Positions 3,583-39,051 of a stretch of 39,051 nucleotides of DNA are shown piece after piece. How positions within the stretch are numbered: the first letter of the stretch is position 1; every line of letters begins with the position of its first letter. The position numbers were made by a program, and so were the translations under genes. The notes beneath the pieces were generated by a model. The model saw only the letters and a program-made list of their open reading frames with translations, was not told where the DNA came from and made no database searches. Source of the DNA: a virus; the IMG/VR virus record IMGVR_UViG_3300027987_000372, positions 1 through 39,051 of that record; one strand, given 5' to 3'.

Positions 3583-4201
3583 CAATCCTCTCAGCGAACT
3601 GCTCGATGAGCTGAAGTGCGCAGCGAGTGCAATTGGATTCAGTTCCATGGCAGCAAAGGCCGAAGCGTGCTCAAACAAGTACCTGGTTCGAGACGAGACG
3701 TGTGAGTACATCTCTCCGAAAGAGCTTGGACTAACCGTCGCAGAGTACATCGACATCATTGAGCTATGCATGCCACTCAACAAGTGCCGGTTGAGGTGCG
3801 GTGGCGTGGTTTCGTTGCCGTACAAGAGTGGCTGCCAACGTGTGCGCGCCGTAGAGTGCGAGCGGCGCGTCAAGTACCACGACGTTGCATCTGGTAACAC
3901 AACTTCCACGTACACTCACGTGGACGGTAGCGTCCACGATCTGGACGAGTATACCAAACGATTCACGTTGTTCGAATCGTTCGCGGATGCCGTCAATGTC
4001 CCTCCTCCTACAGTGTCAGCTTTCCCGGCTGCGCCGAGCATAGTGCTCAGTTCTGAAGACGACGATAACGTTATCGTTTCAGCAGCCATACTCGCGTTCG
4101 CGTTCAGGGAAGTTGACAAGGACGTCCACCTTGTGGTGGAGTATCCGCGTCCACCTCAACCAGAACCAGAGGACTGTCCTGCGACCGTCCGTGGAGACTG
4201 A
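3569..4201 (+). CDS. Hypothetical 210-residue protein
   Basis: GTG start chosen because GGAG (3558-3561) is 7 nt upstream; the gene overlaps the PRTase-like gene by 14 nt. It begins VTCHDNPLSELLDELKCAAS. The first half is helical and Cys-containing (KAEACSNKYLVRDETCEYIS, IIELCMPLNKCRLRCGG), and a C-terminal part is acidic and Pro-rich (SSEDDDNVIV, PRPPQPEPEDCP). No domain recognised; the six or so N-half cysteines could bind a metal. Its 3' part contains a copy of the GGACGTCCACC motif (4120-4130). Confidence 0.6.
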   Translation: MTCHDNPLSELLDELKCAASAIGFSSMAAKAEACSNKYLVRDETCEYISPKELGLTVAEYIDIIELCMPLNKCRLRCGGVVSLPYKSGCQRVRAVECERRVKYHDVASGNTTSTYTHVDGSVHDLDEYTKRFTLFESFADAVNVPPPTVSAFPAAPSIVLSSEDDDNVIVSAAILAFAFREVDKDVHLVVEYPRPPQPEPEDCPATVRGD

Positions 4202-4307: not shown

Positions 4308-5339
4308 ATGCAAGAGTCAGAAGAAAAAGTTCCAGAAGAGATCTCAATATCTGAGATCAAGTGTCACAACACGTGCCCGATGAAGCGTGCGTACCAGTAC
4401 GTCATGCTTCGCAAGCCAATCGAGAATGCAGCCGCTTTGAACATCGGCACTGCTTTCCACGCCGGCATGAACGCGTGGTGGAGCGTAGAGTTACGCGACA
4501 ACAACGGGGAACCAAAGAACAAGGACGAGTTGCTTGAGTCAGCTCTCTACTCTGCTTCGAAAAAACTGAAGTCGACAGAGGGGATGAACGAATACGACTT
4601 GGCGTCAATCCGAGCCATGCTGTTGCTGTACCACTCGAGATGGAAAGATCAGCTTCTTGTTCCGCTCGCCGTTGAGCAGCGGTACAAGCGGACGATCGCC
4701 AACCCATACTCTGGGCGCAAGCTACGCAACTATGTGCAGGTAGGATCGATCGACGTGGTTGCATTCGATCCAGAAGAGAACGAGACTGTACTCGTTGAGC
4801 ACAAGTCGACATCGTTCGATATCTCACCAGGTGAACCTTACTGGAAAAGGTTGTTGTTGAACTCGCAGGTTTCGAACTACTTCGAGGGAGCAATCGCGCT
4901 CGGGTATCGAACAAAGAGATACATCTACGATGTGATTCGAAAGCCCACCATAAGACCGCTAAAAGCAACTCCTGAAGAAGACCGCAAGTTCGTGAAGGCA
5001 ACAGGAAAGCTGTACGCGAACCAACGTGACAAGGACGAGACACCGGACGAGTACTTCGACAGGATTCTTGAGAGCTACTCCAAGTCTCCAGCGTCATTCG
5101 CAGGAAGACAGATCATTACCCTAAGCGATCAAAGACAACGCGATGCTCAGGGCGACCTGGTGTTGACTCTCAAGGCAATCAACGAGTACGACTCGTTGGG
5201 GCACTGGCCGCGAAACGACGAGGGATGCAACCAGTGGAACAAGATGTGCCAGTTCTTCGGTGTCTGTACCGGAGAAGCAAGCATTGACGACTTCACAATG
5301 TTTGTGTCAAAGTCAGCAAAGCACGAGGAGCTCTTGTAG
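4308..5339 (+). CDS. PD-(D/E)XK nuclease with Fe-S-type cysteines (Cas4/RecB-like)
   Basis: A 343-residue protein. The motifs follow the RecB/Cas4 order: an N-terminal Cys pair in IKCHNTCPMKRAYQY (C19, C23), GTAFHAGMNAW near residue 50, an Asp in SIDVVAF near 148, the E-x-K in LVEHKST (near 164-166), and the Q-x-x-x-Y motif in NSQVSNYFEGA (near 187). The C-terminus carries C307-x6-C314-x5-C320, which with an N-terminal Cys would make a 4Fe-4S cluster as in Cas4 and AddB. Such enzymes resect DNA 5' ends. Its position before a Sak4-like ATPase and an SSB points to a phage recombination or replication-coupled repair module. Confidence 0.85.
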   Translation: MQESEEKVPEEISISEIKCHNTCPMKRAYQYVMLRKPIENAAALNIGTAFHAGMNAWWSVELRDNNGEPKNKDELLESALYSASKKLKSTEGMNEYDLASIRAMLLLYHSRWKDQLLVPLAVEQRYKRTIANPYSGRKLRNYVQVGSIDVVAFDPEENETVLVEHKSTSFDISPGEPYWKRLLLNSQVSNYFEGAIALGYRTKRYIYDVIRKPTIRPLKATPEEDRKFVKATGKLYANQRDKDETPDEYFDRILESYSKSPASFAGRQIITLSDQRQRDAQGDLVLTLKAINEYDSLGHWPRNDEGCNQWNKMCQFFGVCTGEASIDDFTMFVSKSAKHEELL

Positions 5340-5365
5340 TTCCAATCACTCAAGCACGAGGTAAT

Positions 5366-6391
5366 ATGGTCCAAGTAACCGAGGCTTTCGCTCAAGCGAG
5401 GGCTACCGCAGCTGCAGCAGCCGCAACTACAGCAATGCCTGCTGCGCAGTCTGGTAAGAACGACATGTTCTCCCGCATTCGAGCGGGCAAGATCATCAGG
5501 GCGCCACGCATAGTTATCCACGGCCCCCCAGGTGTCGGGAAAACCACGTTCGGCGCCGCGTCGCAATCACCGATCTTTCTGAGCCCAGAGAACGGTTCAG
5601 ACTTGTTCGATGTTGCGCGATTCCCTGTTCCACAGACGTACGAAGACGTTATGCTTGCTGTTCGGCAATTGCAGACAGAGAAGCACGACTTCCGCACTCT
5701 AGTGATCGACACCAGCGACGCGATCGAGCCAATATTCTGGAAGAAGGTTTGCCGTGACGCGGGCAAAAAACGCATGGTTGACATAGGATACGGCAAAGGA
5801 TACGAGGCAGCAGCTGAGATGTGGCGCGCACTATGCTCGTCGCTAGACTCACTGCGCGACATGCGCAAGATGACAATAATTGTGCTTGCGCATTCGATGG
5901 TTCGCACGTTCGCAAACCCAACCGGTGATGACTACGACCGGTACGAGATGAAAACGCACAAGCACGTGTCGGCGATCTTGCGAGAATGGTGCGACATCCA
6001 GCTGTTTGCGCAGCAAGAAGAGTTCGTTCGGGAGCGCAACGGGAAAGTCAGAGCAACCTCAACCGACATACGCTACATGCATAGCGTTAGAACCTCAGCG
6101 TGGGACGCGAAGAGTCGGTTCAATATTCCGCAACGTCTTCCTCTCGATTGGGAGGAACTCGAGCACGCAATCAATGTGGCTGTCACAGGAGGCACGAGCA
6201 ACATCATCGCAGAGATCCGCGAGAACCTAATGCATGTAGACGAGGACACGCAAGCAAAAGTGCTTGCGTCAATCGACAAGGCTGGTGATAACCAGCAACA
6301 ACTTTCACGAATCAAGAACAAGCTGTGCTCGATAGTGGCCGAGACGCAACGTCAGCACGCGGAGCTTCATACAGACCAGGACAACGAATAG
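5366..6391 (+). CDS. Sak4-like RecA-fold ATPase (single-strand annealing/recombination)
   Basis: A 341-residue protein. Walker A GPPGVGKTT is at about residues 53-61 and Walker B TLVIDTSD at about 111-118; a later strand (TIIVLAHSMV) with a polar end resembles the sensor strand. Before the P-loop is an Ala-rich stretch (ATAAAAAATTA) and SRIRAGKIIRAPRIVIHG, typical of phage Sak4/RecA-core ATPases (often annotated AAA family ATPase). The C-terminal third is helical and Gln-rich. With the nuclease upstream and SSB downstream it should catalyse strand annealing or exchange during phage replication. GAGG precedes the ATG by 4 nt. Confidence 0.85.
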   Translation: MVQVTEAFAQARATAAAAAATTAMPAAQSGKNDMFSRIRAGKIIRAPRIVIHGPPGVGKTTFGAASQSPIFLSPENGSDLFDVARFPVPQTYEDVMLAVRQLQTEKHDFRTLVIDTSDAIEPIFWKKVCRDAGKKRMVDIGYGKGYEAAAEMWRALCSSLDSLRDMRKMTIIVLAHSMVRTFANPTGDDYDRYEMKTHKHVSAILREWCDIQLFAQQEEFVRERNGKVRATSTDIRYMHSVRTSAWDAKSRFNIPQRLPLDWEELEHAINVAVTGGTSNIIAEIRENLMHVDEDTQAKVLASIDKAGDNQQQLSRIKNKLCSIVAETQRQHAELHTDQDNE

Positions 6392-6397
6392 AGCATT

Positions 6398-6431
6398 GCG
6401 GGCTTCCACATGGCGGCCCGCACTCTTTTTT
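6398..6431 (+). terminator. Terminator-like hairpin directly upstream of ssb (attenuator candidate)
   Basis: GCGGGC (6398-6403), a 12-nt loop and GCCCGC (6416-6421) are followed by ACTC and six T residues (6426-6431), the form of an intrinsic terminator. The GGAGG for ssb starts at 6432 and its ATG is at 6441, so no promoter fits in between. It should reduce ssb transcription unless read through or antiterminated. Confidence 0.7.
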
Positions 6432-6440
6432 GGAGGAATC

Positions 6441-7256
6441 ATGTGGGAAAACATCGACGACAATGACGCGCCTCAGCAGGTGCAACAACAACCGCCACGT
6501 CGCGCTGCATTCGAGTGGGAGCCTGGGATCTATCCAGCGCGTTGCTCAGGAGACTCGCGCTGGGGAATGTCGCAAAACGGGAATCCCCAGCTGTGCCTAG
6601 TGTTTCAGATCACCGACGGCCCAGCAAAGGGTCGGTACGCGTCGTGGATTGGCACATTCTCCCCCGGAAAGGCTACTGAGATCGCTGAGCGAGCGTTGCG
6701 CGCTTGCGGATGGAAAGGTGTAGATCTGAACGACCTAACAGGCATCGAAGACAACGATGTCGAGTTAGATGTTGAGACCGAAGTGTCTCAGAGAACAGGG
6801 AACTTGTATCCCAAGGTTCGCTTCGTGAATCGCCCAGGCAGTGGGGCGATGATTCAGTTTCAACAGCCGCTCGAAGGGGCTGAACTGCACTCCGTGCTCG
6901 CCAACATCAACGCTGATATCCAGGCGATCTGGTTCGAGCGGAACCCGCACCAACAGTCTCAATCCCAAGCGCAGAATCGGCAACGGCCACCAGCCCGACA
7001 GCCAGAGGATAAGCAGCAGCGGCTGCAGCCACAAAGGCAACCTCCGCCCCAACAACAGCCAAGACCTCAGCCCCAAAGCCTGCCGCCACCCCAACAACAG
7101 CCAAGGCCTCAGCAGCAAAGCCTGCCGCCTGCTCAGCAGCGGCTGCAGGTTCCTCGCCAGCATCCGCAACGGCGCCAGGCGCCACCTCAGCAGCCTCCTG
7201 AACAGCCTCAGGGCGGGTACTACGACCAGGGACAGGACGACGACTTCCCGTTCTGA
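6441..7256 (+). CDS. ssb: Single-stranded DNA-binding protein (DUF669-type) with DDDFPF tail
   Basis: A 271-residue protein starting MWENIDDNDAPQQ, with GGAGG 4 nt before the ATG. The folded part (about residues 20-170: EPGIYPARCSGD..., LVFQITDGPAKGRYASWIGTF, GNLYPKVRFVN) resembles phage DUF669/OB-type binding proteins. A long Gln/Pro-rich linker (about 170-255) follows. The protein ends DQGQDDDFPF, which matches the acidic tip of bacterial SSB (DDDIPF) that recruits host replication and repair proteins. It would coat ssDNA made by the upstream nuclease and load the Sak4-like ATPase. It is the last gene of the rightward unit. Confidence 0.85.
   Translation: MWENIDDNDAPQQVQQQPPRRAAFEWEPGIYPARCSGDSRWGMSQNGNPQLCLVFQITDGPAKGRYASWIGTFSPGKATEIAERALRACGWKGVDLNDLTGIEDNDVELDVETEVSQRTGNLYPKVRFVNRPGSGAMIQFQQPLEGAELHSVLANINADIQAIWFERNPHQQSQSQAQNRQRPPARQPEDKQQRLQPQRQPPPQQQPRPQPQSLPPPQQQPRPQQQSLPPAQQRLQVPRQHPQRRQAPPQQPPEQPQGGYYDQGQDDDFPF
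7047..7130 (+). repeat. 42-bp tandem repeat in the ssb linker
   Basis: Two near-identical 42-bp copies beginning CCCCAACAACAGCCAA start at 7047 and 7089. The period is 14 codons, so the frame is kept and each copy encodes PQQQPRPQ(P/Q)QSLPP(P/A). It extends the disordered linker and could vary in copy number by slippage. Confidence 0.8.
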
Positions 7257-7656: not shown

Positions 7657-7974
7657 CTATTCAACCGCGGCGAACATGCTCGGGTCAACGCGCACCTGGA
7701 AGTCTCCGGTGGTCGTGCGAATCGTTCCTGAACCAGTGACACGAAACCAGTAGATGGGGGATTGGTCCAGCGTGATCCACATGTAGTAAACACCAACACT
7801 GTCCCTAGTGATCTCTGCAGCCGCGTATGTCGCTGACTTCAGGATCCCCTCTGGTGTTTTCCACTGAATGGTGACACGGCTCGGGTCAGCGAGCGTATCG
7901 GTTTCGTCGCGAAACGTCATCTGGATCTTGATGCGAGACCCGATTGGAAAGCCTTTTCTACTTGTAGAACTCAT
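7657..7974 (-). CDS. Small beta-rich virion/appendage protein
   Basis: A 105-residue protein starting MSSTSRKGFPIGSRIKIQM. It looks like a single Ig-like or fibronectin-like beta sandwich (VTIQWKTPEGILKSATY, VGVYYMWITLDQSPIYWFRVTGSG), a form common among small phage tail or capsid-surface proteins. Its ATG overlaps the stop of the LamG-repeat gene (ATGA, 7971-7974), so the two are coupled. Function not known beyond probable virion surface. Confidence 0.6.
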   Translation of the reverse strand: MSSTSRKGFPIGSRIKIQMTFRDETDTLADPSRVTIQWKTPEGILKSATYAAAEITRDSVGVYYMWITLDQSPIYWFRVTGSGTIRTTTGDFQVRVDPSMFAAVE

Positions 7975-9494
7975 AGTGCAACTCCAAAGAAGTCCGCCTC
8001 AACGCTGCAGTTAGTGACGTCCTCATCAATCGACGCTTGCAACGTCAAGCTTATCTCAAGTGACGCTTGCGAAGTCACGGTTATCTCAAGTGACGCGCTG
8101 AACTCGTCCTGAGGCGAGCGGATGGTTTCAGTTTGGTACGATTGGTACTCGGCAATCGCCGCTGAAACGACAAGCGTAGCCGTCGCAGAATCAGAATGAA
8201 CAGCAGAATACTCATCTGCAGTAGCAGATACCACCACGCCGGCAGAAGACGATTCGGACTGTGAGGTGCCAGTTTCTTCTACAGACGCTGAAACCACCAC
8301 CTGAGCAGCAAACGACTCTGAATGTGACTGCCCAGTCTCTGTTACGCTTCCAGAGATCACTGCTGTTGAGCCAGCGACTATGCTCTCAGTTTGCACCGAA
8401 GCAGACTCTGTAGACGCTGAGGCAATTGGCATGGCGGATGCCACTGACTCAGTTTGGGCAGATACTGACTCCGACGAAGTAGCATTCACACTGCTGCCAG
8501 CGTTCAGCGATTCGGTTTGCGCCGACACTGACTCCGCGGAAGTTGCGCTTACTCGCACTCCGGATGCCAACGATTCAGTCTGGGCTCCAATCGCCTCGGC
8601 AATAGAACTTGCAATGAGCAATGCCGCGGCAATGTTGTCTGTTTGCCCTGTTCTAATCTCTGTGAGCGCCGAAGAAACTAGAACAGCAGCAGCAATGGCA
8701 TCGGTCTGAGTAGACGCCGACTCAGCAGAGGATGCCGAGATCGCTGTCCCACCTGTGGAGTAAACCCTCCTGATGAACGACTCATGGCCAAGGTACGGAT
8801 CGCTGCTAATGAGCGCGATCTCCTGAGCGTCCAGAACGCGGTTGAACGCTCGTGCGCAATAGATGGTACCGTCGAACGAGCTAGCGGTCTCAAAGCGATT
8901 GGTCGATATGCACAACGGGTCACCGGGAGTTACCGGGTACCCAATCCCCGAGCCATCCTGATTGTACGAGTCACCACGTGCAGCTGCAGTTCCGTCGAAG
9001 TACGCGACAATGCCGCTGTAGTTGTTGGTGCCATCGTACGTGCACACCAACACGTGCTCCCCTGTTCCTGGCGGAGTGAATGTTGCTCGAACATCAGTCG
9101 AGCTCCTGATGAGCTCAAGCTTGAAGTACGCAGCAAGCTCGTAGTACGTACCGAATGTCCAACCACCAGAAGAGAAGTAGTCGCAATGGCAACCAAGACT
9201 CAAGTTGGTCGAGGTTACTTGATTGTAGTAGTACACCCACGTTGCTGGTGTCGCGTGAAGCGTGTTGGTGTACTGATGGTCACCGAACTGAACGCAATCC
9301 TCGTAGTACCAGTTCCCACCGAACTTCTTGCCTGCTGTTCCAAGGGAACTGGTTGCACCTTGCGTTATCGAGCCTACGAGTGTTCCGGCGTATCCCTTGG
9401 CCGCGTCACACGTAGGATTGCGCGCATCCCACGCGAACACGCATCCGCGATTGATCGGATGTCGCTTGTCCAGTCGTGGGGAGTAAACTCTCAC
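7971..9494 (-). CDS. LamG-like appendage protein with ten 21-residue repeats
   Basis: A 507-residue protein. Residues about 1-245 form a concanavalin/LamG-like domain (RGCVFAWDARNPTCD..., HVLVCTYDGTNNYSGIVAYFDGT, GTIYCARAFNRVLDAQEIALI), typical of carbohydrate-binding phage tail and appendage proteins. Residues about 251-463 are ten tandem ~21-residue units of the form VSATSAESVSAQTESLNAGSS, low in aromatics and rich in Ser/Ala/Thr/Glu. A short C-terminal region with internal repeats (SLEITVTSQASLEISLTLQ) ends the protein. It probably binds the cell surface through LamG and extends by a repeat stalk. The start overlaps the preceding stop by ATGA. Confidence 0.75.
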   Translation of the reverse strand: MRVYSPRLDKRHPINRGCVFAWDARNPTCDAAKGYAGTLVGSITQGATSSLGTAGKKFGGNWYYEDCVQFGDHQYTNTLHATPATWVYYYNQVTSTNLSLGCHCDYFSSGGWTFGTYYELAAYFKLELIRSSTDVRATFTPPGTGEHVLVCTYDGTNNYSGIVAYFDGTAAARGDSYNQDGSGIGYPVTPGDPLCISTNRFETASSFDGTIYCARAFNRVLDAQEIALISSDPYLGHESFIRRVYSTGGTAISASSAESASTQTDAIAAAVLVSSALTEIRTGQTDNIAAALLIASSIAEAIGAQTESLASGVRVSATSAESVSAQTESLNAGSSVNATSSESVSAQTESVASAMPIASASTESASVQTESIVAGSTAVISGSVTETGQSHSESFAAQVVVSASVEETGTSQSESSSAGVVVSATADEYSAVHSDSATATLVVSAAIAEYQSYQTETIRSPQDEFSASLEITVTSQASLEISLTLQASIDEDVTNCSVEADFFGVAL

Positions 9495-31972: not shown

Positions 31973-32161
31973 TTATCGCTTTCGAGTCGTCGGTGGACGC
32001 AGTGCACGTTCGCGCTGTACACGTTCCAGCGAACGCAATGCGCTTTCCCTCTCTTCGATTCTTTCTTCGATTGCAGCGAGTCTTGTCCTCGTCAAATCTC
32101 GAGCTCGACTGCGCTGTCCTTGAGCTGAAAACATCCTGGGCTTCATCGGGTCGTCTCTCAT
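31973..32161 (-). CDS. Small basic helical protein
   Basis: A 62-residue protein starting MRDDPMKPRMFSAQGQRSR at an ATGA overlap with the preceding gene. It is very Arg-rich, with a helix of the form LAAIEERIEERESALRSLERVQRERALR (Arg/Glu heptads, coiled-coil-like). It ends 1 nt before the next start. Longer frames over the same DNA are shadows. Function unknown; a small nucleic-acid or protein-binding role is plausible. Confidence 0.55.
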   Translation of the reverse strand: MRDDPMKPRMFSAQGQRSRARDLTRTRLAAIEERIEERESALRSLERVQRERALRPPTTRKR

Positions 32162-32880
32162 GGATCATTACCCCACGGGTTGTGCTCCTCTTCGAGAAGC
32201 AGTTCTTGTTGACGTTGCGGCTCGTAGCGAATCGAGCCGATTCCTTCGTCGATGTCGCTTACGGCATCGTTGAACTTTCGTCGCGCTTGCAGGTCTCGGT
32301 GAAGCACCGGCCGCTTCGCGTAACGCCCTGAGCGAATCTCACGCTGGTATCCGTGCATCCGTTGCCAGTCCTCAAGCTCCCAGAGAACGCGCTCACCGGG
32401 GTCTGTGGACCCAAGGAACTCGACAGCTGTTGCCCTGGCTGAGTCGCGCTCCCGCTTGTTCTTCCCGAGCTCGCCGGCGAGGGCCGCCCGAGCAAGGACG
32501 ACAATCTTTGCCCGCTTGCGTTCCTCTTCAGCCGCTCGCTGCTCTTCGTGTTGTTTGATTGTCTCTCCCTGCTTGTCCCACATCTGCAGCCAAAGGCGCG
32601 CCAAACACGCCGCAGTGACACGGCAACGGACGCCGCACAGTTCCCTCAGCTGCGACGCATCGAGGCGCTCAGTGGGTCCTGTGCGCTTCAAAAGCCCAGC
32701 TTCCGCCTCGGCGCTGAATGGAAAGTGCTGGTTCACCCACGCTACCCAGCCGCGAGCCGTGGTGTCCTTCGGCAATTCAGGCACCCCGTGGGGAATCCTC
32801 GAGGAAACGCACGGGACCCCCCATTGCTCTATCGGCTCCGAAGGGTTACTCGCAAAAGAAAAAAGCGAAACATTACTCAT
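32158..32880 (-). CDS. Hypothetical 240-residue protein
   Basis: It starts MSNVSLFSFASNPSEPIEQW. The first third has WVAWVNQHFPF, the middle is a long charged helix (QGETIKQHEEQRAAEEERKRAKIVVLARAALAGEL), and the C-terminal part is basic (YQREIRSGRYAKRPVLHRDLQARRKFND) before an acidic end. No family recognised. It lies just downstream of the initiator candidate, with 112 nt between them that hold a promoter-like AT-rich patch. Confidence 0.6.
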   Translation of the reverse strand: MSNVSLFSFASNPSEPIEQWGVPCVSSRIPHGVPELPKDTTARGWVAWVNQHFPFSAEAEAGLLKRTGPTERLDASQLRELCGVRCRVTAACLARLWLQMWDKQGETIKQHEEQRAAEEERKRAKIVVLARAALAGELGKNKRERDSARATAVEFLGSTDPGERVLWELEDWQRMHGYQREIRSGRYAKRPVLHRDLQARRKFNDAVSDIDEGIGSIRYEPQRQQELLLEEEHNPWGNDP

Positions 32881-32992: not shown

Positions 32993-34192
32993 CTAATGCA
33001 CGTTCCCCCGCGAGTACCGACGGCGCTCTTCCTCGAGCATTGCTGACACTCGTGGGTCCACGTCTGGCTCGTCCTGTTCGAGTAGCTTGCGTAACACCAC
33101 CATGCTCAGGTCCTCGATTCCGTGACGACGATTGGTCCCGTCCGATGGCATCTCCCCGCGGCACCACGGATCCGTTTCGGCAATCTCGCATGCCCGCAGA
33201 ATCCTCTCGAGTGGCACTTGCTCGAGTAGCGTCAGGATATTCGCCAATTGCCGATTGCTGCGCGAGTACGGAGCCAGAGGCACATTGGGGAGGCCTACTG
33301 CCTCTGCCCATGCCTCGTGCACCCGCACGACCTCTGGTCGCAGGTGAACGTCAACCATTGCCGCGTTGGTTGGGTGCTCTCGGCAGTAGCGGGCGAGATC
33401 GGCGATTGGGAGTTCCCTCGTTACCCTTCTCGCAGTCTCAATTCTGCTCTCGCGCCTTCGTTGGTCCAACGTCCGCTCTGATTCACCCTCCGGAATGGCG
33501 CCGAGCAGATCGCCCGAAAACTCTATGCCGTTTGCGGACGTTTCACGCCGTGTTTCACGTGGGCTCTCGATCGGTGGCTCCGAGCGAAGGGGCGTGGGGC
33601 TCGCGAGAGGGCCACGGAGCGGGAGCGAGGCCTGCTGGGGCGTCTGGTTCTCCCTCTCGGGCGCAGCCTCTTGCCGCTGCCGCTGCCGCCGTCGCGCACG
33701 CTCTTGCGGGCGCGTTGCGGCTTCAGCTTCCTGCTTTTCTTCCTGCTTCTCTTCCTGCTTCGGGTGCACCACGTGCACTGGTACCCGTGCACCACGTGCA
33801 CTACCCCCGTGCACCACGTGCACTACCCCCCGTGCATCTGGTGCACCAGTGCATGGCGTGCACCCGTGCACGTGGTGCACCCGTGCGAAGTCCAGTTCGC
33901 ACTGCGGGTTTGCCATATCTGCCAACATGGCCACCCAGTCGGATGCCAGCCGGTAGGAGTTCACGAGACCTCGCCGACGGTAGATTGTGAGCAGTCCCGA
34001 GGCCTCCAGATGTTCGAGCTCGTAGAGCACGCACCTGCGGGATAGAGATGACATCGCCATCAACCTCCCGATTCCTGGTCGCATCTTCGGTGCGTGCTCA
34101 ATCAGTACCAAGAGCACGAGTTTCGAGACCGCACGCAGTGGGCTCCCCAGCACGGCCGCACGCGCGGCAACGAAGTCGAAGTGCTCTGACAT
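32993..34192 (-). CDS. Winged-helix replication-initiator candidate (lambda O-like organisation)
   Basis: A 399-residue protein. Residues about 1-85 form a winged helix-turn-helix (SKLVLLVLIEHAPKMRPGIGRLMAMSSLSRRCVLYELEHLEASGLLTIYRR), as in phage O-type origin binders. Residues about 105-145 are encoded by the repeat array at 33764-33880 and read as unusual His/Val/Arg-rich sequence. Then comes a Gln/Arg/Glu/Pro-rich linker (about 145-225) and a C-terminal helical domain (REHPTNAAMVDVHLRPEVVRVHEAWAEAVG; NILTLLEQVPLERILRACEIAE) like replisome-organiser C-termini that contact a helicase loader. Origin repeats within the initiator gene are typical of lambdoid replication. Protein-level match is by pattern only. 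Confidence 0.65.
   Translation of the reverse strand: MSEHFDFVAARAAVLGSPLRAVSKLVLLVLIEHAPKMRPGIGRLMAMSSLSRRCVLYELEHLEASGLLTIYRRRGLVNSYRLASDWVAMLADMANPQCELDFARVHHVHGCTPCTGAPDARGVVHVVHGGSARGARVPVHVVHPKQEEKQEEKQEAEAATRPQERARRRQRQRQEAAPERENQTPQQASLPLRGPLASPTPLRSEPPIESPRETRRETSANGIEFSGDLLGAIPEGESERTLDQRRRESRIETARRVTRELPIADLARYCREHPTNAAMVDVHLRPEVVRVHEAWAEAVGLPNVPLAPYSRSNRQLANILTLLEQVPLERILRACEIAETDPWCRGEMPSDGTNRRHGIEDLSMVVLRKLLEQDEPDVDPRVSAMLEEERRRYSRGNVH
33764..33880. repeat. Iteron-like array inside the initiator gene (putative origin)
   Basis: Six copies of a 15-bp element with GTGCAC ends. GTGCACCACGTGCAC is exact at 33764, 33787 and 33809 (22-23 bp apart, about two helical turns). GTGCATCTGGTGCAC at 33832 and GTGCATGGCGTGCAC at 33849 are degenerate. 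GTGCACGTGGTGCAC at 33866 is the exact inverted copy. The exact copies fall in two different frames, giving VHVVH twice and ARGAR once, so the DNA is what is kept. A Lys-Gln-Glu-encoding polypurine tract flanks it (33724-33762). Confidence 0.8.
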
Positions 34193-34941: not shown

Positions 34942-34993
34942 CGGCTGCCGGTACACGATTCCCTATCCCCCCTCTTTCGGGTACCGGCAGCCG
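34942..34993. promoter_or_regulatory. 13-bp perfect inverted repeat, long loop
   Basis: CGGCTGCCGGTAC (34942-34954) and GTACCGGCAGCCG (34981-34993) flank a 26-nt pyrimidine-rich (plus strand) loop. It lies between the gene at 35001-35351 and the promoter-like region for 34828. There is no T-run on the minus strand. It could be a factor-assisted terminator, an RNA regulatory stem or a protein site. The remaining 34829-34941 shows only the TATAAT. Confidence 0.6.
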
Positions 34994-38248: not shown

Positions 38249-39051
38249 TCACGAGGCAGCTGGCACCATCGGGCAAACCATGTAGGCGCCCGAGAAGAAC
38301 AACCGGTACAGATCGGACACGGTGTAGTAGTAGAAGCCACCGCCAACTCCCCATGAGTCTCCCCAAGAGTTGCGAAGCCACATGCGTTGGTTGAGCACGT
38401 CGAAACCGAGTGCTTCAGTCGAATGTCCACCCTGAAGGTCACCGGTTACGCTAGTTGCTCCACACAGGTCTGTGACGTTGCCAGAGGAGTACCAGTTTTG
38501 ATCGAACGCGCATGGCCCGCTCATCAGAGCGTCATGCCACCCCTGAGGGGATTGCTCAATCTGGCGTACTCCGCGCACCCATCCCCAACGCAACGCCACG
38601 GACATCGTGCTGGTGGCGTAGCTTCCGTTGTCCGTGGGAGGGTATGCGCCACGGCAAGTGTCGTCTGTGATCTGGCAGCCACGGTCGAGCCTCGTAGCTG
38701 CAGAGTACAGCGCAATTGCATCGGACAGAGACATGTGCCTGTCGTACGGATACGTCGACAATACTCCGTCCACTGACGCTCCGGTGCAAAGCCCGACGTT
38801 CCCTTGGTCGAGCGACCCCTTGTCGTTTGGTGTCCACCAAACATCGTCACCAGTCACTGGATCGGCAGCCATAGTAGCAAGCGCAGACTTGGATCTGGGC
38901 TGCATCGCAGGTCCGAACTTTCGCACCGGCAACGACTTCATCAGGCTCAGTCGAGTGGTGTCAGTCTCGCACTGAGGAAACGCTGGACGCGCCGTGACCG
39001 TTTCAGTTGTTGCTCCGCCCGCACCAGCAGTCTCCAGTGTTTCCCACGGAT
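38249..39051 (-). CDS. Papain-family (C1) cysteine protease, catalytic domain; 5' end continues at 298-1
   Basis: The C-terminal part of the 318-residue protein that crosses the junction. All four papain-family landmarks are present in order: oxyanion Gln Q134 in DQGNVGLC, nucleophile C140 in GLCTGAS, His H261 in GGHSTEALGFD and Asn N279 in RNSWGDSWG. Extra Cys (CQITDDTC, CAFD, CGAT) could form disulfides, agreeing with an exported enzyme. Phage papain-like proteases are unusual; possible roles are cell-wall or outer-membrane protein degradation at entry or lysis, or processing of virion proteins. It heads the leftward unit. The longest frame inside the window begins before 39051 and is cut by the window end. 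Confidence 0.88.
   Translation of the reverse strand, partial: PWETLETAGAGGATTETVTARPAFPQCETDTTRLSLMKSLPVRKFGPAMQPRSKSALATMAADPVTGDDVWWTPNDKGSLDQGNVGLCTGASVDGVLSTYPYDRHMSLSDAIALYSAATRLDRGCQITDDTCRGAYPPTDNGSYATSTMSVALRWGWVRGVRQIEQSPQGWHDALMSGPCAFDQNWYSSGNVTDLCGATSVTGDLQGGHSTEALGFDVLNQRMWLRNSWGDSWGVGGGFYYYTVSDLYRLFFSGAYMVCPMVPAAS
38908..39051. repeat. Terminal direct repeat, right copy (circular overlap)
   Basis: Identical to bases 1-144 throughout. Both copies fall inside the protease gene and preserve its frame, which is expected if the molecule is a circle written with an overlap. Confidence 0.95.

Follow-up and report, generated by a model that had tools for sequence, protein, structure and literature searches.

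A virus record of 39,051 bases, the whole of which is the window analyzed here, carries six exact units of the form GTGCA-N5-TGCAC inside its gene for a winged-helix replication initiator, and we consider it likely, with a probability of roughly 0.8, that these units are lambda-type iterons of the gene's own initiator, a protein of the HTH_36 type rather than a lambda O, and hence that they constitute the phage replication origin. This reading rests on the finding of an array at the same position in homologous initiator genes of otherwise unrelated phages, together with matches of the protein to replication-initiation PHROGs, an AT-rich stretch beside the array at the level of the family and replication genes downstream. 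The features that are needed in what follows are listed here.

32993..34192, minus strand: winged-helix (O-like) replication initiator gene, 399 aa (PHROG matches and family profile)
33941..34180, minus strand: N-terminal winged-helix domain, recognition-helix sequence SRRCV (AlphaFold model and alignments)
33866..33880, minus strand: iteron 1, GTGCACCACGTGCAC, read VHHVH, frame 0, exact GTGCA-N5-TGCAC
33849..33863, minus strand: iteron 2, GTGCACGCCATGCAC, read CTPCT, frame 2, exact GTGCA-N5-TGCAC
33832..33846, minus strand: iteron 3, GTGCACCAGATGCAC, read APDAR, frame 1, exact GTGCA-N5-TGCAC
33809..33823, minus strand: iteron 4, GTGCACGTGGTGCAC, read VHVVH, frame 0, exact GTGCA-N5-TGCAC
33787..33801, minus strand: iteron 5, GTGCACGTGGTGCAC, read SARGA, frame 1, exact GTGCA-N5-TGCAC
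33764..33778, minus strand: iteron 6, GTGCACGTGGTGCAC, read VHVVH, frame 0, exact GTGCA-N5-TGCAC
33718..33763, minus strand: purine tract adjoining iteron 6, candidate opening region, 82% purine
32158..32880, minus strand: 240-aa gene downstream of the initiator, in the position of lambda P, of no recognized family

Results

Six units maintained as DNA. On the plus strand GTGCACCACGTGCAC is present in three exact copies that start at 33764, 33787 and 33809, in steps of 23 and 22 bp, with one exact inverted copy at 33866-33880 and further copies at 33832 and 33849. An earlier note on this DNA had reported the three exact 15-mers and the inverted copy within the winged-helix gene, all of which are confirmed; the remaining two copies, which it had called degenerate, are indeed present but their arms conform exactly to GTGCA-N5-TGCAC and only the 5-bp core differs. 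The conserved unit of the array is the arm pair and not the whole 15-mer. When up to three mismatches are allowed the 15-mer has 14 matches in the genome (2.08 expected) and none of 100 shuffles reaches as high a number, such repeat counts being inflated by the self-palindromic GTGCAC. The six exact GTGCA-N5-TGCAC units all lie in the initiator array, with none elsewhere in the 39-kb record.

In coding order (minus strand) the units follow one another in steps of 17, 17, 23, 22 and 23 bp and make use of all three codon frames. Shuffling synonymous codons of the initiator gene, with protein sequence and codon usage held fixed, gave a mean of 1.6 units and a maximum of 5, so that six were reached in 0 of 20,000 shuffles. 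Selection on the array at the level of DNA, which we judged by frame statistics, synonymous shuffles and distant relatives and which had been proposed before, is supported by the mixed reading frames and by the synonymous shuffle. The array has the hallmarks of the lambda type in that it lies inside the gene of the initiator itself, past the codons for the N-terminal DNA-binding domain, and in that an iteron spacing of about 20-24 bp (23, 22 and 23 bp, plus the two 17-bp steps) is maintained as DNA.

The initiator and its surroundings. The N-terminus of the initiator matches PHROGs 1032 (E=2e-6), 270 (E=4e-5), 8540 (E=1e-3) and 4617 (E=3e-3), all of which are replication initiation families, the family winged-helix profile matches the 399-aa protein with E=5.8e-13, and the AlphaFold model of the N-terminus (mean pLDDT 84) has the order helix-helix-HTH-wing. 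By PHROG matches, family profile and model, the window initiator therefore has an HTH_36/O-like winged-helix N-terminus. A Pfam search of the protein called nothing, neither HTH_36 nor PF04492 (Phage_rep_O), and the protein does not belong to the lambda O family (PF04492); of 50 members of its own family, 49 have HTH_36 and all 50 match replication-initiation PHROGs. A PDB fold search with the modeled domain gave matches to winged helices of a generic MarR/ArsR-like kind, all of them above E=1e-3, a result that confirms the fold and leaves the initiator role unsupported. Searches with the whole initiator protein gave no relative in IMG/VR or among named phages, relatives being reached via the DNA pattern only, and those with the terminase and portal proteins gave distant contigs only, two and one respectively.

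For the 240-aa product encoded downstream there is no PHROGs match and no significant Pfam match, and neither a loader nor a helicase was recognized downstream. The corresponding 44 downstream genes of array relatives include 9 DnaC-like loaders, 4 DnaB-like helicases and 3 P-like loaders, and in named relatives a P, DnaC or DnaB-like gene is next in line. Between genes upstream of the initiator operon there is a 17-bp inverted repeat with an 18-nt loop (34942-34993, 94% complementary), possibly a terminator or operator.

Elsewhere in the record head, portal-adaptor, internal-virion and terminase genes are recognized. The ends of the record form a perfect 144-bp direct repeat (1-144 and 38908-39051), reflecting either true terminal repeats, podovirus-like genes being present, or the overlap of a circular assembly. 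A recombination block at 4308-7256 (plus strand), with a PD-(D/E)XK exonuclease, a Sak4-like annealing ATPase (PHROG 124, E=3e-41) and a weak DUF669 gene, is far from the initiator and on the opposite strand. In the left, plus-strand gene block a 62-bp repeat (92%; 926-987 and 1834-1895) contains the palindrome GGTGGACGTCCACC, with a third related site, GGACGTCCACC, at 4118-4139, and these look like operator sites of a regulator. The minus strand also includes a gene at 7971-9494 with a concanavalin/laminin-G-like lectin domain (E=6e-7), whose product is possibly a virion adhesin, and one at 38249-38941 with a weak match to papain-type cysteine proteases (Peptidase_C1, E=0.002, below cut-off) that would be unusual for a phage.

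The stretch beside the array. The polypurine tract adjoining the array had been put forward as a possible opening region. The tract itself is real, with 82% purine over 33718-33763 that places it among the top 0.2% of the genome's 40-mers, but the 40 bp that adjoin the array are 47% AT, close to the 44% of the whole genome, and the sequence immediately beyond them drops to 23-28%; the candidate opening region of the window phage is thus strongly biased toward purines and only weakly toward AT. Across 68 gene clusters of relatives (among the matches listed) the 50 bp directly beyond the array exceed the locus in AT by 0.12 (12 points), with the enrichment found in 90% of them, and the most AT-rich 40-mer of the 400 bp that follow lies no more than 60 bp from the array in 52 of 63 (among the matches listed). 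Cumulative GC skew, suggested earlier as a check, shows no turn at 33.8 kb in the window record; the skew tracks gene direction and is uninformative.

Recurrence of the pattern. A search for two exact units matched a single viral contig, L001, an AT-rich phage whose winged-helix protein shares about one quarter of its residues with the window initiator and whose winged-helix gene contains identical 15-mers with identical GGGGGTA spacers. With the pattern relaxed to GTGCA-N5-TGCAC-N2-12-GTGCA-N5-TGCAC at least 119 viral contigs were obtained, as compared to 3 with the pattern reversed as a control. Starting from L001 a winged-helix profile was built, which, run on the array-bearing reading frames, detected the domain in 97 of 120 viral loci among the matches listed, a few more being truncated at contig ends, and in 20 of 118 genome loci. 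In the resulting 117 array genes (68 clusters at 60% identity, among the matches listed) the array begins 17-59 codons past the winged-helix domain, successive exact units are mostly 21-24 bp apart and more than one frame is used in 72 of the 117, the two leading frames accounting for 255 and 112 of 400 units. The 5-bp core is similar within a gene (1.3 mismatches) and dissimilar between genes (3.1; again among the matches listed), while the invariance of the arms in this comparison is a product of the search pattern itself.

According to genome titles the hosts belong to Bacillota, Synergistota, Pseudomonadota, Actinomycetota, Bacteroidota, Acidobacteriota, Planctomycetota and Chloroflexota and include a deltaproteobacterium, with MAG contigs possibly misbinned; Thermus is a further host, from the named phages. 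Named toxin-converting phages were excluded from the relatives that were fetched. Several genome contigs from Gallionella-type and Isosphaeraceae assemblies (L133, L135, L141, L145 and L152 as well as L136, L137 and L150) have several GTGCA..TGCAC pairs per assembly at fixed spacing outside initiator genes; these are probably dispersed genomic repeats unrelated to iterons and were left out of the analysis.

The order of the spacings is directional. Among the matches listed, clusters that have both 17-bp and 22-23-bp steps have the 17-bp steps at the end nearer the winged-helix codons in 11 cases and at the other end in 0. The window array is of this bipartite type, with 17-bp steps before those of 22-23 bp, and the CCGCA-type phages MD8 and TC7 follow the same plan. 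One guess is that such an array combines a loading or regulatory half with an opening half.

Relatives chosen by protein. A further set of relatives was gathered without regard to the motif, by protein alone, among named phages, among plasmids and in a phylum sample. Loci L260-L271 are from genomes picked for the motif, so statements independent of the motif are based on that sample and on tblastn matches in phages and plasmids. Of 40 genes that lack a GTGCA array, 13 contain in the same place a chain of at least three other 15-bp two-arm units with 16-26 bp spacing, as compared to 4 of 448 control windows taken from these loci, and at the sensitivity used a chain of at least three units was not detected in 27 of the 40. 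Arms found at the array position include CCGCA..TGCAC (MD8, TC7), CTTCA..TGAAG (a Brevibacillus plasmid), TCCCA..GGGAT (GF-2) and GTGTC..GTCAC (mEp010). The array as a feature is thus often retained even as its letters change. The loss of the 15-mers in phages that keep the protein had been named beforehand as an outcome that would speak against the origin; many relatives do keep the domain without them, but in part of these a different array occupies that position.

The third position of the recognition-helix motif SRR[ST]V is arginine in 61 of 68 GTGCA clusters, which derive from among the matches listed, versus 24 of 48 others (Fisher p=4e-6), and [RK]R occurs in 42 of 68 versus 5 of 48 (Fisher p=1e-8). 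Both p values are uncorrected for relatedness, and the apparent association of arm sequence with the recognition-helix arginine is for this reason only a lead.

Comparison with lambda and other initiators. The origin of phage lambda lies within gene O, as is also the case in Stx phages (PMC7466680). Analyzed with the same tools, lambda O shows its iterons over codons 116-138 at distances of 20, 24 and 23 bp, with all three frames in use and sequence of 72% AT beyond them; it is a PF04492 (Phage_rep_O) protein with E=6e-36 and is not found by the family profile. Common to lambda and the window phage are an N-terminal DNA-binding domain, iterons in the linker region of the initiator's own gene that are 20-24 bp apart and in several frames and, as an expectation, theta replication with the host replisome; an AT-rich tract adjoining the last iteron links lambda with the family as a whole, the window phage itself having a strong purine bias but a weak AT bias there. 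The two differ in iteron sequence, that of lambda being ATCCCTCAAAACGAGGGA, and in number, with four in lambda and six in the window phage, where an upstream 17-bp-spaced sub-array is included; moreover, unlike lambda O the window initiator is not a PF04492 protein and does not have a recognized P gene beside it. Edwardsiella phage GF-2 bridges HTH_36-type initiators and lambda O: its initiator combines an HTH_36 N-terminus with a C-terminus that matches the PHROG of lambda O (E=2e-63), its repeats, TCCCA..GGGAT, resemble those of lambda, and P is found downstream.

Phage and plasmid proteins annotated as HTH_36 or 'replication initiation O-like' (PF13730; PHROG 8540, 1032, 270, 391) belong by profile to the same winged-helix family and, as in the window family, have an array at the same gene position and often a loader or helicase next, although members such as those of MD8, TC7, the Brevibacillus plasmid, GF-2 and mEp010 differ from the window phage in their arms. 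In Thermus phages Lalka8/27a/27b eight GTGCA-N5-TGCAC units, 21-23 bp apart, are located at the start of an O-like gene that is followed by a DnaB-like helicase and a primase; unlike that of the window phage these arrays are without a 17-bp sub-array. The paper on these phages names the O-like protein, and iterons are not mentioned there by term search (PMC11437467). In PLE RepA the DNA-binding domain covaries with the iteron sequence and swaps as a module (PMC8263062); the iteron-matched DNA-binding domain is a likeness to the window family, whereas RepA is a RepA_N-type initiator whose iterons are non-coding and ∼30 bp long (PMC8263062).

Discussion

The step from lambda-type initiator iterons to an origin, taken in the earlier note, has gained support from the PHROG matches, the recurrence of the array, the AT-rich neighborhood in relatives and the gene context. 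We infer that the initiator binds the array and that opening and initiation take place there, in the following manner. The winged-helix domain, whose codons shortly precede the array, would bind the GTGCA-N5-TGCAC units, probably as one initiator dimer per 15-bp dyad at sites about two helical turns apart, so as to form an O-some-like complex that would help open the adjacent purine- and A-rich stretch. The C-terminal part of the initiator may then bring in host helicase and replisome, directly or via a loader, and array and adjacent stretch together would be a theta-type origin built as in phage lambda. Counting against the origin reading are the weak opening region, the absence of a GC-skew turn, the lack of a recognized loader or helicase and of an HTH_36 Pfam call, and the many genes of the same family without a detectable array.

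Another reading is that the initiator binds the array mainly to regulate itself, the sites acting as an intragenic operator or roadblock and the origin being at some other locus. Autoregulation through iterons is frequent among initiators, many repressors have winged-helix domains and the array is downstream of the gene start, yet the sequence after the array is AT-rich in 90% of clusters (among the matches listed), helicase loaders or helicases are beside the gene in many relatives and the proven origin of lambda is in the same place with the same spacing, so that we regard this reading as unlikely. Somewhat less probable still is that the array is the site of another protein, a partition, packaging or host factor, and is in the initiator gene by chance. 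Spaced-dyad arrays do serve as centromeres or packaging sites as well, but here, in phages that are unrelated, the array comes after the winged-helix domain of one and the same gene and its arm sequence appears to be associated with the recognition helix of that domain.

We give very little credence to selection of the repeats for the protein, as a repetitive Val-His/Ala-rich linker, a reading that is largely refuted by frame use: one type of site is read VHVVH, SARGA, CTPCT or APDAR within the window gene, several frames are used in 72 of 117 genes (among the matches listed) and relatives have other repeats at the same spot, even though the location is a low-complexity linker and two frames predominate (with 255 and 112 of 400 units, among the matches listed). 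Chance, low complexity or an assembly artifact is hardly credible and was rejected; the palindromic GTGCAC does inflate repeat counts, but neither the genome shuffles (0/100) nor the synonymous ones (0/20,000) reproduce the array, which recurs independently in other contigs, isolates and named phages.

With the origin reading preferred, the window array alone is a fresh instance of the known lambda-type plan. The GTGCA-N5-TGCAC iteron is undescribed in the full-text literature searched, most subscription papers being outside it, and relative to that literature one iteron type shared as DNA by phages of about ten phyla, a directional bipartite spacing and a putative association of arm sequence with the recognition-helix arginine are provisionally new. 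A broader proposal, which we put forward tentatively and at slightly less than even odds, is that GTGCA-N5-TGCAC is a very widespread and ancient phage iteron, found in ∼10 bacterial phyla in all frames of winged-helix initiator genes, with a directional plan (17-bp units first, 22-23-bp units beside the opening region) and a specificity code (recognition-helix arginine with arm GCA), so that origins and initiators could be matched from sequence alone. For most uncultured phages the replication origins are unknown, and with a DNA word as origin marker in a recognizable gene they could be mapped from sequence across many contigs. If changes in the arms go hand in hand with changes in the recognition helix, the family may offer a natural collection from which to learn how the match between initiator and origin is preserved during divergence and during recombination between phages of distant hosts.
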